Source: Rhodospirillales bacterium
GTDB taxonomy: Bacteria > Pseudomonadota > Alphaproteobacteria > UBA828
Length of the DNA: 64,000 nt
Assembly: GCA_028818855.1 (NCBI GenBank)
Contig: JAPPMY010000056.1
Coordinates: 62,001 to 126,000, forward strand
Direction of reading: 5' to 3'
This document shows positions 10,538 through 18,855 of this stretch, piece by piece; the first letter of the stretch is position 1, and each line of letters begins with the position of its first letter. The notes beneath the pieces were generated by a model, which searched no databases, was not told where the DNA came from, and worked only from the letters and a program-made list of their open reading frames with translations. Made by a program: the position numbers and the translations under genes.

Positions 10538-11569
10538 ATGCCCGAACGCACATCACTGCAGAGCAAGCAATCCGCGCGACGGGTCACCCTGCGGGACGTT
10601 GCGCGCGAGGCGGGGGTCTCGGTCGCCACCGCATCGCGGGTGCTGAACGGCTCGCCGTCGGTCTCGCCGGCGACAAGGGAGGACGTGCTGCGCGTCTTCG
10701 CCAAGCTCGAATTCGCGCCGGATCCGCTCGCGCGGGCGCTCAACGCAGGCGGCACCAACACCGTCGGCGCCGTGATCCCCACCATCAACCACGCGATCTT
10801 CGCCGCGTTCCTGGAAGCGCTGGAAGCCCGGCTGGACACCAATGGCTATTGCCTGCTCATGGCCACGACCGGCATGGACCAGCGCGTGGAACTCGAGCGC
10901 GCCCGGTCGCTGCTCGAAATGGGCGCGCGGGCGCTGATCGTCACCGGGCTGGATCACGAACCCGAGCTTACCGCCATGGCCAAGCGGTTCGGCGCGCCCG
11001 TGGTCGCAACGTCGATCTACGAGGCCTCCGCCGCGATGCCGACCATCGGCTACGACAACATCGAGCTTGGGCGCCAGGCCATGCGGCATCTCATCGACCT
11101 CGGGCACAGGGATGTCGCCCTGATTTCCGGGCCCACGGCGAAGAACGACCGGGCGCGCTTCAGGATTCGCGGCGCGCAATCCGTGGGCGGCGTGCGCTCG
11201 CTGCGCACCATAGAGACGGAGCTGAGCGTGGGCGGCGGCGTCGTGGCCGCGAAGCAGGCGCTGGCGTGGGACCGGCGGCCGACGGCGCTGCTTTGCGTCA
11301 CCGACCTCGTGGCGCTCGGCGCGATGTTCGAGCTTCAGCGGAGCGGCCTCCGCCTGCCTGGGGACATGTCGGTCATGGGGTTCGATCACATTTCCTGGTC
11401 CGAGCACAGCCACCCGCGCCTGACCTGCATCAGCCTCCCCGTCGCCGCGATGGGCGAGGAGAGCGCGCAGGCGATCTGCGACTTCCTCACCGACGGCACG
11501 CCGATCCCCTCGGTTCGCCTGCAGGGCGAGATCAAGATACGCGGCTCGACCTGCCCGCCATCTCGGTGA
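10538..11569 (+). CDS. LacI-family transcriptional regulator
   Basis: Repressor or dual regulator, 343 residues from the ATG at 10538. The N-terminal helix-turn-helix is VTLRDVAREAGVSVATASRVLNG with the hinge region following, and the rest is a periplasmic-binding-protein-like effector domain (GAVIPTINHAIFAAFLEALE through SVMGFDHISWSEHSHPRLT). A GTG at 10481 would add 19 unconserved residues; neither start has a clear ribosome site. It is divergent from the importer-xsc-pta operon, and two AACCGGTT-core palindromes lie between them, so it most likely controls that operon and itself. The effector is probably the sulfonate or a pathway intermediate. Its 3' end overlaps the opposing ABC membrane gene by 38 bases. 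Confidence 0.88.
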   Translation: MPERTSLQSKQSARRVTLRDVAREAGVSVATASRVLNGSPSVSPATREDVLRVFAKLEFAPDPLARALNAGGTNTVGAVIPTINHAIFAAFLEALEARLDTNGYCLLMATTGMDQRVELERARSLLEMGARALIVTGLDHEPELTAMAKRFGAPVVATSIYEASAAMPTIGYDNIELGRQAMRHLIDLGHRDVALISGPTAKNDRARFRIRGAQSVGGVRSLRTIETELSVGGGVVAAKQALAWDRRPTALLCVTDLVALGAMFELQRSGLRLPGDMSVMGFDHISWSEHSHPRLTCISLPVAAMGEESAQAICDFLTDGTPIPSVRLQGEIKIRGSTCPPSR

Positions 11570-12377
11570 GACGCCCCGAAATCTCGCGCAGGCGGAGCCA
11601 CTGCTGGTAGTAGAGGGGGAGCGACATCACGGCTTCCATGAACTGGAAGACGTACATGACGATGGCGAAGACCTTGCCGTACTCGACGATGTCGCCCGCT
11701 GCCGCGCCGATCGAGAAGACGAGCAGGGCGATCATGAACAGCCAGACGATCCCGAAGTTGGCGGCTTCCAGGTCGGACAGCTTGATGTTCCAGCGCATCA
11801 TATCGCGGATGTGGCGGCCGACACGCGCGGCATCGCCGCTTTCGACGGCGTCGACCTGCTGCTCGTACTGATCGTTGTAGCTTCGGTTGAAGCGCGTGGT
11901 CAGCCGTCCGGTCAGCACGTAGATCGCCACCGTCACGCCGATGACGACGATGCAACCGCCGAAAATCGGCAGATTCAGTGTCGACAGGATGAGAATTACG
12001 CCAGCGAGCTGGAGGACGCTGGTGATCAGCTCGGGAAGGGAGTTCTCGAGAAACTCGACGATCTCACGGAGCATTCCGAGGCGCGCCGTCTTGGTCGACG
12101 TGCTGCTCTCGGACTGACCGGCCACCAGCTCCTCGCCGAGCTTCGCGTAGATCCGGGCGTAAGCCCGGCTGTCCACGATCCGCCGGAGGATGGCGATCGC
12201 CATGGCGGCAATGCCGAGAACGGCCAACTCGTAGAGCCCGTGCCAGGAGTCCGCGAGAACGCCGTCGATGGCGCGGCCGATGACCAGCGGAAAGAGGATC
12301 CAGCCTGCGGACTCCAGCACGATCAGAAAGAGTGTCAGTGCAATGCGGCCGGCGAAGCGCTTGAGCAGCACGCTCAT
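11532..12377 (-). CDS. Stand-alone ABC transporter six-helix membrane protein
   Basis: Integral membrane protein of 281 residues that resembles only the transmembrane half of an ABC exporter (of the ABC_membrane_3 type). Six hydrophobic segments are visible, from LFLIVLESAGWILFPLVIG through IVMYVFQFMEAVMSLP, with the long cytoplasmic loops expected of an exporter fold. No Walker motifs follow; the frame stops right after the last helix, and no partner ATPase gene lies within several kilobases. Such ATPase-less proteins occur in other proteobacteria, so it is probably intact rather than truncated. The gene ends inside the LacI gene on the other strand. Substrate and partner are unknown. Confidence 0.72.
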   Translation of the reverse strand: MSVLLKRFAGRIALTLFLIVLESAGWILFPLVIGRAIDGVLADSWHGLYELAVLGIAAMAIAILRRIVDSRAYARIYAKLGEELVAGQSESSTSTKTARLGMLREIVEFLENSLPELITSVLQLAGVILILSTLNLPIFGGCIVVIGVTVAIYVLTGRLTTRFNRSYNDQYEQQVDAVESGDAARVGRHIRDMMRWNIKLSDLEAANFGIVWLFMIALLVFSIGAAAGDIVEYGKVFAIVMYVFQFMEAVMSLPLYYQQWLRLREISGRLTEMAGRSSRVS

Positions 12378-12434: not shown

Positions 12435-14378
12435 CTACTTGATGGCCGGAAGCCGGGCGAGGAGCCGGGCGATCTCGGCGTCGCTCACGTGCGCCGGGCG
12501 GTACCAGGAGCGCTCCGCGGCGCTCACGATGCGCTGACGGTCCGCCGGCACATCGGGAACGAAGCCGATCCAGAGCTCGCTCATCTCGTCGGTGGTCTCC
12601 CAGCCCCAGGTCACGGTCTCGGGCTCCACCGCCGGGTTCTGCGGATTGTCCGCCGTGTTGTCGTAGCTGACCCAGACGTCGATGCGGCTGCCGGCCGGCA
12701 GGTGGACCGGATCGCGGTAGGTAAAGGTGTTCTGCCAGCGGAAGTCCCAGTCGGCGATGCGGATGAGGGGCCGCTCGCTGCCGTCGGGCAGCGTCGCCAG
12801 CGCGATGAACGCGCGGCCGAGAAAGTGCACGTGCGGGGTCACGTCGGTGAGCGTCATGCCGGACGGGACGTCCATCGAGAAGTGCCGCCAGTAGCTCTCC
12901 TCGCCCGGCGGAATGCGCAGGTCCTGCGTGCCGATGACCACGCCGTCGACGTAGCGGCTGACCGGCTCCGTGGCGAAGTAGAGGCCCACTTCGCTCCGGT
13001 CGGTGGTGGCCTTGCCGTTCAGGTGGTAGTGCACCTCCAGCACCAGGTCGCCGCCCTTGGGCAGCCACATGCCGAGGCCCTTGTCGAGCACGTAGGGGTC
13101 CACGCCGGGCGCCCAGCCGCCGATGCCCCAGGCGTTGTAGTCGAGGAACGCGCCGGTGCCGAAGACCGAGAACCCGGGCGCGGCGTCCTTCGCATCCTCG
13201 GCCCGTGCGGCCCCGCTGTAGTCCATGAGGTAGTTGGCGTGGTGCACCACCTTCGGATCGCCGGGGCTGAAGTCGAGGGCCGCCACCACCTTGTCTTCGA
13301 CGAAGCCGGTGGGGATGACGAAGTAGCGATAGATGTCCTCGCCGTCCGCCGGCACTGCGAAGGGCTCGGGCATGCTGAGCACCAGGTCGGGCTCGCCGAG
13401 GCGCCACTTCGAGGCGGAGCGGGCGGAGGCCGGCATGGTGTCCCCGGCATCGCCCCGTGGGGCGCCGTTTTCCGACCACGACGCGAGCAGCGCGATCTGG
13501 TGGTCGCTCAGGCGGCGTGCGTCGCGGAAGGCGCCGAAGCCGGACACCGCCCTCCAGGGGGGCATCAGGCGTTCGCCGGTCATGAAGGAGACCATGCGGT
13601 GCCAGCGCTTCGCGTCGTCGTAGCCTGCGAGGGAGAAGGGGGCGATGCCGCCGTGGCGGTGGCATTCGACGCAGTTGGCTTCGAGCAGCGGCGCGATGTG
13701 GCGGTTGTAGGTGACGGCTTCGAGCCCTGAGCCGCTCGCGCCGGGCCGCTCCCAGTCGTGGTGGAAGCAGCCGACGGCGTCGGTGGCGTAGGGCTCTGGC
13801 CGGCTGCCCTCGGCCACCGCGTCGATGACCGTGCGCAGATCGTGCGAGGATATCCGCGCCCTGAGCTTGCCCACGGCGGCGAAGCGATCGTCGATCCGGC
13901 CCCGGTAGACGATGCGGTCGGCGGTCGAGATCACGAAGGCTTCCGACATCACGCGCGGGCCGAGGCGGAGCGCCAGATCGCCGGCGCTGTCCAGGATGAC
14001 CGGGAACGTGACCGCGTAGTCGTCCACGAACTGCGCACTCGCCCGCCAGGTGATGGCGGGGTTCGAGAGGACTCCGTAGAGCGCGACGCCATTCGCCTGC
14101 GCCTCAGCGTAGAGCGCGTTGAGCGTGGGCACGTAGCGCGTGGCGACGGGGCAGGCGGTATCGAGAAACACCAGGACCGCGGACTGCACCTCGCCCGCGG
14201 TGACGCCGATCCGGTGGTGGTGCCCCTTCACGTCGACGACGCGAACGCCGATCAGGTCGACCGCGTCGCCCGGTCCCGGCGCTGCTGCGGCGGCGAGCGT
14301 GGGCGCCGCCGCCACGAGACAGACGAGGACGATCAGGGCGCGAAGTCTCTTCGCGACGGCGGTCATCGTGGTTCTCAT
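12435..14378 (-). CDS. Secreted redoxin / c-type heme / PHM-like copper monooxygenase fusion
   Basis: Protein of 647 residues with a signal peptide (about 1-32), so periplasmic or exported. Domain 1 (about 35-190) is a redoxin/AhpC-TSA fold with a single peroxidatic-type cysteine in DTACPVATRY (C76). Domain 2 has one c-type heme motif, CVECH (236-240), followed by a possible axial Met in LMPPW. Domain 3 (from about 330) resembles peptidylglycine hydroxylating monooxygenase. HH at 379-380 and H450 in LEVHYH match its CuH ligands; HVH at 516-518 and M599 in TTDEMSELW match its CuM ligands. The ATG overlaps the upstream TetR stop (ATGA), so the regulator and this enzyme are co-translated. The substrate is unknown; the heme may supply electrons in place of ascorbate. 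Confidence 0.8.
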   Translation of the reverse strand: MRTTMTAVAKRLRALIVLVCLVAAAPTLAAAAAPGPGDAVDLIGVRVVDVKGHHHRIGVTAGEVQSAVLVFLDTACPVATRYVPTLNALYAEAQANGVALYGVLSNPAITWRASAQFVDDYAVTFPVILDSAGDLALRLGPRVMSEAFVISTADRIVYRGRIDDRFAAVGKLRARISSHDLRTVIDAVAEGSRPEPYATDAVGCFHHDWERPGASGSGLEAVTYNRHIAPLLEANCVECHRHGGIAPFSLAGYDDAKRWHRMVSFMTGERLMPPWRAVSGFGAFRDARRLSDHQIALLASWSENGAPRGDAGDTMPASARSASKWRLGEPDLVLSMPEPFAVPADGEDIYRYFVIPTGFVEDKVVAALDFSPGDPKVVHHANYLMDYSGAARAEDAKDAAPGFSVFGTGAFLDYNAWGIGGWAPGVDPYVLDKGLGMWLPKGGDLVLEVHYHLNGKATTDRSEVGLYFATEPVSRYVDGVVIGTQDLRIPPGEESYWRHFSMDVPSGMTLTDVTPHVHFLGRAFIALATLPDGSERPLIRIADWDFRWQNTFTYRDPVHLPAGSRIDVWVSYDNTADNPQNPAVEPETVTWGWETTDEMSELWIGFVPDVPADRQRIVSAAERSWYRPAHVSDAEIARLLARLPAIK

Positions 14379-14926
14379 GGGCTCAATCCTTCGAGCAACG
14401 TGCGCAGCGCCAGGTCGGCCGCGTGCGCGGGCGCCAGGTTTCCCGCCGCGATCTCGGACCAGGCGAGCCAGACCTGCGCGTCGATGTTCGCCACCGCCCA
14501 GGAGCGCGGCAGGTCCGCTGCGATCGCGCCTTCCGCCTTGAGGTCGTCCACCAGGCGCCCGAGCCAGTCGAGTTCTTCGGCGTAGCGCTGGCGCACGCTC
14601 TCGTCGTCGACGGTCTCGGACACCAGGAAGTGATAGCGGTCGCCGAGCGGCACCACCGCGTCCAGCATGCGCGAGAGGCGCTCGCGCGCCGTCCGCGCGT
14701 CTACGAGCGCCGCGGTGGTCGCGGCGTCGATCTCGTCCATGCACTGCCTGGAGGCGGCTGCGATGAGGTCGGCGCGGGACGGGAAGTGGCGGTGCAGGCT
14801 CGCGCGGCCTGCGCCGGCGCGGGCCGCGATCTCGGAGAGGGACGCGCCCGGATTGCGCGCGAGCGTGTCGATGGCCGCATCGAGAATGGCCTGGCGCATC
14901 GGTGGGCGGAGGGGTCGTTCGGTCAT
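14375..14926 (-). CDS. TetR-family transcriptional regulator
   Basis: Repressor of 183 residues. The N-terminal helix-turn-helix is RQAILDAAIDTLARNPGASLSEIAARAGAGRASLHRHFPSRADLI (contiguous, residues about 11-55); the variable C-terminal domain would bind the inducer. The ATG at 14926 is preferred over an in-frame TTG at 14932. A well-formed promoter with an inverted repeat in its spacer lies directly upstream, and its predicted start point is only about five bases before the ATG, so the message would be nearly leaderless. The stop overlaps the start of the copper monooxygenase fusion gene, which makes that gene the obvious target of its control. Confidence 0.85.
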   Translation of the reverse strand: MTERPLRPPMRQAILDAAIDTLARNPGASLSEIAARAGAGRASLHRHFPSRADLIAAASRQCMDEIDAATTAALVDARTARERLSRMLDAVVPLGDRYHFLVSETVDDESVRQRYAEELDWLGRLVDDLKAEGAIAADLPRSWAVANIDAQVWLAWSEIAAGNLAPAHAADLALRTLLEGLSP

Positions 14927-14966: not shown

Positions 14967-15433
14967 GTCTAAACGTGCCCGCAGGCTCTCCTGCCCATCC
15001 GCCCCGGAACAAGGTGCGGTGCACGGTGCGGGGCGGTGGCGGCACCATCGCGCCATGCAGAGCAAGGCGGAGAGACCCGCGGCCGGTGCGGTCCCGAGAC
15101 TCGGGGGTGCGCCCGATGGGCAGTTGCCGGCCGCGGACTGCGCCGCCATCGCCGGCGGTGCCGGAAGGAAGGAGGGCGCCTGGGCCGGTTCGGACCGTTT
15201 TGGGCCACTACGTGCCGCTTCAGTTGGGCCACTTTGGGCCATTATGTGCCATTTTGTGCCATTATGTGCCGGAATAGGCCGCTATAGGCCGGTAAATTCC
15301 GGACACAATGCCTTCGCGCCGCCCGCTTCGCGTGCCGGGCGCGGGCGGGCGACACGGCCCGTGTCCCGGACGGGAAACCGGGCTAGGATCGCGCGCTTCT
15401 CCGACAGCCACGACGATGCCGGGTGACTGCCCC
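14967..15433. other. Intergenic region of about 470 bases without a supported gene
   Basis: Several short open frames exist on both strands but none shows a recognisable domain, a ribosome site or normal composition. The right half contains the 10-bp tandem repeat described separately. The leader and promoter of the aminotransferase gene must lie here, but I cannot identify them with confidence. Confidence 0.6.
15225..15294. repeat. Seven-copy 10-bp tandem repeat
   Basis: Seven consecutive 10-base units follow the pattern TGKGCC plus four AT-rich or variable bases: TGGGCCACTT, TGGGCCATTA, TGTGCCATTT, TGTGCCATTA, TGTGCCGGAA, TAGGCCGCTA, TAGGCCGGTA. Two related units (15201-15220) precede them with a 4-base interruption. 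GCC is kept in every copy and the left half is the most uniform. The period is close to one DNA helical turn. It lies 140 bases before the aminotransferase start. Confidence 0.75.
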
Positions 15434-16771
<1,338 letters not shown>

Positions 16772-16802
16772 GGGCGCGGGCGGATCGCGCGGGGGGAGCA
16801 GG

Positions 16803-18002
16803 ATGGCACGGGCCTATATCGTCGGCACCCTGGATACCAAGGGCGAGGAGCTTCTCTACATCCGCGATCTGCTGGCGGCGGCAGGGGTGCAGGCGTGCGT
16901 CGTGGATGTCGGCACCGGCTCTGGAGAGCGGCCCGCCGGGATCGACGTGAGCGCAGCCGAGGTCGCGGCCCACCATGCCGACGGCGCCGATGCGGTGCTC
17001 GCCCTTGAGGACCGCGGGCAGGCGGTGGCAGCCATGGGGGCCGCGCTGGCGAACTTCCTGCCGACGCGCGATGACATCGGCGGCGTGATCGGGGCAGGGG
17101 GCTCCGGCAACACCGCGCTGGTCTCCATCGGGATGCAGGCGCTCCCCATCGGCGTGCCCAGGGTGCTGGTCTCCACTGTGGCCTCTGGCAACGTCGCGCC
17201 CTACGTCGGCCCCAACGACATCACCATGATGTACTCGGTGGTGGACGTGGCCGGGCTCAACCGCATCTCCCGCGTGGTGCTCGCCAACGCCGCGCACGCG
17301 CTCGCCGGCATGATGCGGGGCGAGGCGCCGGCGGCCGAGGACAAGCCCGCCATCGGCCTCACCATGTTCGGCGTCACCACGCCCTGCGTCGATCAGGTCC
17401 GCGCGGCGCTGGAGGCGCGCTACGACTGCCTGGTGTTCCACGCGACCGGGACCGGCGGGCGCTCCATGGAGAAGCTGGTCGATTCCGGGCTCGTGCTGGG
17501 CTGCATCGACAGCACCACCACCGAGGTCTGCGACCACCTGATGGGCGGCGTCTTCAGCGCGGGCGAGGACCGGCTCGGCGCCTTCGCGCGCACCGGCCTG
17601 CCCTACGTCGGCTCCTGCGGGGCGCTCGACATGGTGAACTTCGGCGCCCGCGAGACCGTGCCGGCGCAGTACGAGGGCCGCACCTTCCACATCCACAATC
17701 CCAACGTCACGCTCATGCGCACGACGCCGGACGAGAACCGGGCCATGGGCGAATGGATCGGGGCCAGGCTCAACGCCTGCGAGGGGCCGGTGCGGTTCCT
17801 GGTGCCGGAGAAGGGGGTCTCGCTCATCGACGCGCCGGGGATGCCCTTCCACGACCCGGACGCCGATGCGGCGCTCTTCGAGGCGCTGGACCGCACCGTC
17901 GTTGAGACCCACGCAAGGCGCCTGATCCGCCTGCCGCTCCACATCAACGACGCCGATTTCGCCCAGGCTCTCGTGGAGAGCTGGACCGAGATCGCCGCCT
18001 GA
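16803..18002 (+). CDS. UPF0261 / Tm-1-like ATP-binding protein
   Basis: 399 residues, matching the N-terminal half of plant Tm-1 proteins. Typical segments are [20 protein letters not shown] at the N-terminus, [15 protein letters not shown] near residue 98, and [23 protein letters not shown] near residue 124. The fold has an ATP-binding lobe; the bacterial function is not established. A GGGGAG ribosome site precedes the ATG. It is 31 bases downstream of the aminotransferase and 22 bases upstream of the TIM-barrel partner, and the three are likely one operon. In plants the two domains are fused in one protein that binds a viral replication protein. Confidence 0.85.
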
Positions 18003-18024
18003 CCCGAACGCCAGGAGACCGCCA

Positions 18025-18855
18025 GTGCCGGGCATGGATCGCCGCAGCCTCCTCGACACGTTCCACGGCATGGTCGCCCGCCGCGAGCCGATCATCGGCG
18101 GCGGCGCGGGCACCGGGCTCTCTGCCAAGTGCGAGGAGGCGGGCGGCATCGACCTCATCGTGATCTACAACTCCGGGCGCTACCGCATGGCGGGGCGGGG
18201 CTCGCTCGCCGGCCTGCTGGCTTACGGCAACGCCAACGAGATCGTGAAGGAGATGGCGCACGAGGTGATCCCCGTGGTGAGCCGCACGCCGGTGCTGGCC
18301 GGCGTCAACGGCACCGACCCATTCATGGTGCTCGACCGCTTCCTGGACGAGTTGAAGGGACTGGGCTTCGCGGGCGTGCAGAACTTCCCGACCGTCGGCC
18401 TCATCGACGGCGTCTTCCGCGCCAACCTGGAGGAGACGGGCATGGGCTACGGCCTGGAGGTGGACATGATCCGCGCGGCCTGCGAGGCCGATCTGCTGAC
18501 CACGCCCTACGTCTTCTCCGAGGACGACGCGGTGGCCATGACGGAGGCCGGCGCCGACATCATCGTCTGCCACATGGGGCTCACCACCAGCGGCAGCATC
18601 GGCGCGCAGACCGCGAAGTCGCTGGAGGAGTGCGTGGGGCTGATCGATGCGTGGGCGCTGGCGGCAAAGGCCGTGCGCGAGGACGTCATCGTGCTCTGCC
18701 ACGGCGGGCCCATCGCCTCGCCCGAGGACGCGACGTTCGTGCTGCAGAACGCAGAGCACGTGCACGGCTTCTACGGCGCCAGCAGCATGGAGCGCCTGCC
18801 CACCGAGGTCGCCATGACCGCGCAGACCAGGGCCTTCAAGGAGATCAGTTTCTGA
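18025..18855 (+). CDS. TIM-barrel protein of the PEP-hydrolase-like family
   Basis: 276 residues, equivalent to the C-terminal half of plant Tm-1 and annotated elsewhere as a phosphoenolpyruvate hydrolase family protein. The barrel runs from [15 protein letters not shown] through [30 protein letters not shown] and [16 protein letters not shown] to [16 protein letters not shown]. Related barrels are PEP mutase and isocitrate lyase-like, but the exact reaction is unknown. The GTG start at 18025 is preferred because AGGAG lies seven bases upstream; an ATG nine bases later is too far from it. Partner of the preceding UPF0261 gene. Confidence 0.83.

Follow-up and report, generated by a model that had tools for sequence, protein, structure and literature searches.

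A putative exported PHM/DBH-superfamily copper monooxygenase with attached cytochrome c and redoxin domains in a Rhodospirillales bacterium

The dicopper monooxygenase PHM is usually regarded as an enzyme of eukaryotes. In a paper on its fold it is described as widespread in eukaryotes, as opposed to PNGase F in bacteria (PMC8812541). DBH and PHM have their coppers reduced by electrons from ascorbate; one copper (CuM) binds O2, and an electron crosses from the other (CuH). There is still debate on how the two coppers, which lie far apart, receive electrons and how electrons cross between them (PMC4846438). The DOMON domain of DBH contains no heme ligands in the crystal structure (PMC4846438). 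In vitro, a bacterial c-type cytochrome was reported to reduce a copper monooxygenase of another class, and to do so with less H2O2 than ascorbate (PMC8981238).

We analysed a stretch of DNA of 64,000 nucleotides from a Rhodospirillales bacterium (hereafter, the window), in which a single reverse-strand gene encodes a redoxin domain, a predicted c-type cytochrome and a PHM-like dicopper core, in that order (Table 1). The gene product is probably a PHM/DBH-superfamily copper monooxygenase that is exported and has its own electron entry domain built in. An earlier note, made from the sequence of this DNA alone, had named candidate copper ligands and a heme motif (H379-H380, H450, H516, H518, M599 and CVECH at residues 236-240) and had described the protein as secreted. 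All of these residues were found where the note had placed them, and the N-terminus, judged by eye, carries an apparent export signal.

Table 1. Features of the enzyme gene and of the adjoining regulator gene, in window coordinates
Feature	Position	Strand	Basis or remark
Whole gene: redoxin, cytochrome c and PHM-like dicopper core	12435..14378	-	647 aa + stop
Probable Sec signal peptide, residues ~1-33	14280..14378	-	by eye: basic N-terminus, hydrophobic run, AxA
Redoxin domain, thioredoxin fold, residues ~35-211	13746..14276	-	Pfam AhpC-TSA; profile and fold matches
C76, first conserved redoxin Cys (CPVA)	14151..14153	-	kept in 48/49
C204, second conserved redoxin Cys (VGC)	13767..13769	-	kept in 49/50
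Predicted mono-heme c-type cytochrome domain, residues ~222-305	13464..13715	-	Pfam Cytochrome_CBB3 (E 0.0017) and conserved motifs
CVECH heme attachment motif, residues 236-240	13659..13673	-	sequence; family conservation
M272 of MPPW, candidate distal heme ligand	13563..13565	-	50/50; 36 residues after first Cys
PHM/DBH-type two-domain copper core, residues ~325-620	12519..13406	-	profile and predicted fold
H379-H380, predicted CuH ligands (PHM H107-H108)	13239..13244	-	register and conservation
H450, predicted CuH ligand (PHM H172)	13029..13031	-	register and conservation
H516, predicted CuM ligand (PHM H242)	12831..12833	-	register and conservation
H518, predicted CuM ligand (PHM H244)	12825..12827	-	register and conservation
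M599, predicted CuM ligand (PHM M314)	12582..12584	-	register and conservation
TetR-family regulator	14375..14926	-	Pfam TetR_N, 36.6 bits (cut-off 24); ATGA overlap with enzyme gene

The proposal of a PHM-like dicopper core was borne out by profile matches, predicted fold and ligand conservation, all of which agree. In a single-sequence Pfam scan, the window protein scored 11.9 bits against PF03712, below the cut-off of 23, which for a single protein is a test of sensitivity and not a defining trait of the superfamily. Relatives at 28-29% identity match both PF03712 (4e-14) and PF01082 (2e-7), and a core-only profile of 33 family sequences reached PHM in the PDB at about 8e-14 (DBH, 1e-9). 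A profile built from nine relatives similarly gave matches to DBH (1.1e-10) and PHM (3.6e-10). In the core-profile alignment, H379-H380, H450, H516, H518 and M599 fall in register with H107-H108, H172, H242, H244 and M314, which we take to be the numbering of the PHM ligands (chain offset 44), and the six ligands were identical in 50/50 representatives clustered at <80% identity. Structure prediction, which had been proposed as a check, gave the two-domain PHM core fold. The AlphaFold2 model, made from an alignment of 14 sequences, had a moderate mean pLDDT of 70, with the heme loop and residues 582-597 below 50; the first 31 Foldseek matches with this model were all PHM or DBH, and VIA-align against PHM gave a Z of 20.9 and 3.6 A over 276 residues. 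Alignment and model together indicate that the core has a CuH ligand set (H379, H380 and H450) and a CuM ligand set (H516, H518 and M599). The window protein shares with PHM (PDB 1phm, 1opm and 3mib) the two-domain jelly-roll core, the six copper ligands and a DEM motif around the CuM methionine, although identity is only ~18% and PHM has neither cytochrome nor redoxin. DBH (PDB 4zel) has the same core and ligand pattern, and it too carries an extra domain N-terminal to the core; however, this extra domain of DBH is a DOMON domain, and a dimerization domain is present at the C-terminus, whereas the N-terminal part of the window protein consists of cytochrome c and redoxin.

The substrate pocket appears to differ from that of PHM. 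In the core-profile alignment, R240, N316 and Y318 of PHM, which we take to hold the peptide carboxylate, are matched by T514, E601 and W603 of the window protein. Because these residues are replaced, peptidylglycine is unlikely as a substrate, and the enzyme is probably not peptide-amidating. That the protein is a true bacterial peptidylglycine-hydroxylating enzyme, as the same fold and copper ligands might suggest, is hence extremely unlikely; in addition to the three replacements, no gene for an amide lyase was noticed in the neighbourhood of the enzyme. Disappearance of the carboxylate-binding residues of the eukaryotic enzyme would also fit a non-catalytic copper- and heme-binding protein, an electron carrier or sensor that merely retained the PHM fold. 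However, two unlike copper sites, the CuM methionine included, stay unchanged throughout a family that is very diverse, and the predicted fold spans the full two-domain catalytic core, so that we regard a non-catalytic role as very unlikely and continue to favor a monooxygenase.

Upstream of the core, the CVECH motif that had been suggested to attach a c-type heme was found to be conserved and to be accompanied by a conserved candidate distal ligand, M272. The window protein scored 19.1 bits against Cytochrome_CBB3 (cut-off 27, E 0.0017), and 7/9 relatives matched this family at E 0.01 or better. CxxCH was present in 49/49 representative rows that reach the motif, and M272 in 50/50 (<80% identity set). 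The queries behind these 50 representatives had covered the heme region, and a core-only query was then run as a check on 398 genomes from the phylum of the window and 119 genomes from that of an Acidobacteria record (L010). CxxCH lay upstream of the core in 35 of the 36 match rows read, some of which duplicate loci already in the family set, and MPP always followed 36 residues after the first Cys; the sole row without CxxCH was cut by a stop codon. The core-only profile was itself built from heme-bearing members, and a divergent heme-free bacterial group could escape it. To lessen this bias, PF03712 was used to search two phyla, that of the window and that of an Isosphaeraceae record (L012), and CxxCH was found in 32/32 ORFs read, with the exact 36-residue Met spacing in 31; the search misses much of the family, because PF03712 fails to find the window protein itself. 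The cytochrome was thus attached in every intact bacterial family member examined. We suggest that the domain is a mono-heme c-type cytochrome with predicted covalent heme attachment and M272 as candidate distal ligand. CcmE is encoded in the source genome, which makes heme c maturation plausible.

Retention of the heme at fixed spacing across the bacterial family makes heme-to-copper electron transfer within the chain more plausible, and we favor such a transfer on these sequence grounds. The core could instead be a monooxygenase whose heme is an additional site for catalysis or sensing, acting like a peroxidase or binding O2 or NO, with no relay to copper, and redoxin and heme could then form a peroxide-handling unit. 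This arrangement seems unlikely. A methionine at a fixed spacing after CxxCH is a feature of six-coordinate electron-transfer cytochromes, and it was found in 50/50 sequences; moreover, the heme is retained where the redoxin is absent.

The redoxin domain matched AhpC-TSA with 40.8 bits (cut-off 26). Its closest solved relatives by profile are 2cvb, 3u5r and 2ywi, with which both Cys columns (CPxx and IGC) are common, and its predicted fold gave a Z of 18.1 to 2cvb and 15.2 to 4nmu (ResA-like). The proteins 2cvb/2ywo (Thermus), 3u5r (Sinorhizobium) and 2ywi (Geobacillus) share the fold and both Cys columns of the domain, but these thioredoxin-like proteins are free-standing. As judged from sequence and model, the domain is ResA/TlpA-like. 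The earlier note had called it a one-Cys redoxin that could handle peroxide, and neither part of this description was supported. Two cysteines, C76 and C204, are conserved, and the sole sequence without C204 (L017) is also without C76, which suggests that they act as a pair. In the sequence and the family columns, the peroxiredoxin motif PxxxT/SxxC was not found: V69 and D73 occupy positions -7 and -3 from C76. The missing PxxxTxxC motif, the two conserved cysteines and the thioredoxin-like nearest structures all argue against peroxide handling as the likely role, and a peroxiredoxin identity was ruled out on the active-site motif. A CxxC active site was likewise not found in the window redoxin, which has CPVA and, as its second conserved cysteine, C204; CPxC occurs in some relatives only.

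As a fused domain, the redoxin precedes the core in many members of the phylum of L012 and follows it in one ORF of L075; in several genomes (e.g., G514, G516, G555, G568 and G456) it is instead encoded by a same-strand neighbour of the core gene. Fusion in either order, together with adjacency, speaks for a functional link between redoxin and core. The redoxin is absent from most core proteins read in the phylum of L010 (Acidobacteriota), and hence does not appear essential to the core. These associations, and the joint loss of both cysteines in L017, would also suit a copper chaperone-like or maturation module that supplies the core with Cu(I), rather than one that handles oxidants or maintains thiols. 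We consider Cu(I) loading possible but doubtful, given that the domain is without the CxxxC of SCO proteins, its closest structures are thioredoxin-like, and most sampled Acidobacteriota-group core proteins do without a redoxin. L015 and L017, both from genome G259, are paralogues with EF-hand segments C-terminal to the copper core; L017, with its cysteine-free redoxin site, has kept the heme and copper ligands.

We infer a scheme in which the cytochrome would be heme-loaded and reduced by an external donor, and the heme would in turn reduce CuH, replacing the ascorbate of the animal enzymes. CuM would bind O2 and substrate, and one oxygen atom would be inserted into a small substrate, not peptidylglycine. 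The redoxin, in what is the weakest part of the scheme, would most likely support the core by thiol-disulfide chemistry, either keeping it metallated or reduced or handling oxidants from uncoupled turnover, and the product of the overlapping TetR gene would probably adjust expression to a small ligand. A comparable use of a small c-type cytochrome to feed an exported copper monooxygenase is that of the Cbp2D cytochrome CjX183 with bacterial lytic polysaccharide monooxygenases (LPMOs); however, LPMOs are unrelated mononuclear copper enzymes, and the cytochrome was not fused to the monooxygenase tested (PMC8981238).

With the core profile, the family was rare in the window's phylum (3/398 sampled genomes) and was detected in 22/119 genomes of the phylum of L010; with PF03712, it was detected in 31/118 genomes of the phylum of L012. 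Within the window's own genus, 7/8 genomes have it. In the tree, the window protein falls together with records from Gammaproteobacteria, Kiloniellaceae and Gemmatimonadota, within a set in which the phylum of L012 is strongly represented, and this mixed grouping suggests transfer between phyla. In the phylum of L010, genomes G585, G653, G665, G683, G691 and G692 had 18-23 core-profile matches each, with scoring limited to 20 candidates per genome and a few of the matches being pieces of one gene; this is an unusually large expansion of predicted exported copper enzymes. A broader reading, to which we give about even chances, is that these proteins form a large bacterial branch of the PHM/DBH superfamily, with obligate electron entry through cytochrome c, that functions as an ascorbate-free heme-dicopper monooxygenase, has expanded to ~20 paralogues in some Acidobacteriota and, in the one sub-branch to which the window protein belongs, has recruited a two-Cys redox domain. 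The Acidobacteria relative (L010, 7842-10337) carries a C-terminal extension of ~190 residues that, judged by eye, seems helical and repeat-like.

A search of the open-access literature turned up no publication on a bacterial PHM-like enzyme with a fused heme domain, which is weak evidence of absence; the bacterial heme-PHM family is apparently large and unstudied, and domain databases may already list the architecture. What is new is thus an uncharacterised variant, in which a cytochrome and a redoxin, absent from PHM and DBH, are placed on a known superfamily core. A family with the heme attached would offer studies of copper electron transfer an internal donor as well as a spectroscopic probe, and would add a large set of exported oxygenases.

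The coupling of the enzyme to a TetR regulator, also proposed earlier, is supported by gene arrangement. The TGA stop codon of the TetR gene overlaps the ATG of the enzyme gene (ATGA) in the window and in 8/8 near loci that hold the junction. A TetR gene lies upstream of the enzyme in 9 loci; in the Acidobacteria locus L010, the regulator has 42% identity and lies six bases upstream. Gene overlap and co-conservation suggest that the regulator may control the enzyme. A conserved biosynthetic neighbourhood was not found across the loci compared, in which the recurring genes are those for TetR and, at a subset of loci, for an ABC-type transmembrane protein; other neighbours of the enzyme were not conserved across genera. 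Divergent genes at 15308-18855 (+) of the window encode proteins of 487 aa (aminotransferase-like by eye), 399 aa and 276 aa, and adjoin the TetR-enzyme pair in the same-genus loci L001, L002, L003 and L005, but not beyond the genus. Fifty-seven bases downstream of the enzyme gene, at 11532-12377 (-), lies a gene for a protein of 281 aa that consists only of an ABC transporter transmembrane region (PF13748, 148 bits), without an ATPase domain. L002 encodes a relative of this protein next to the enzyme (92%), L011 has one in the vicinity of the enzyme (37%), and a short remnant is present in L005.
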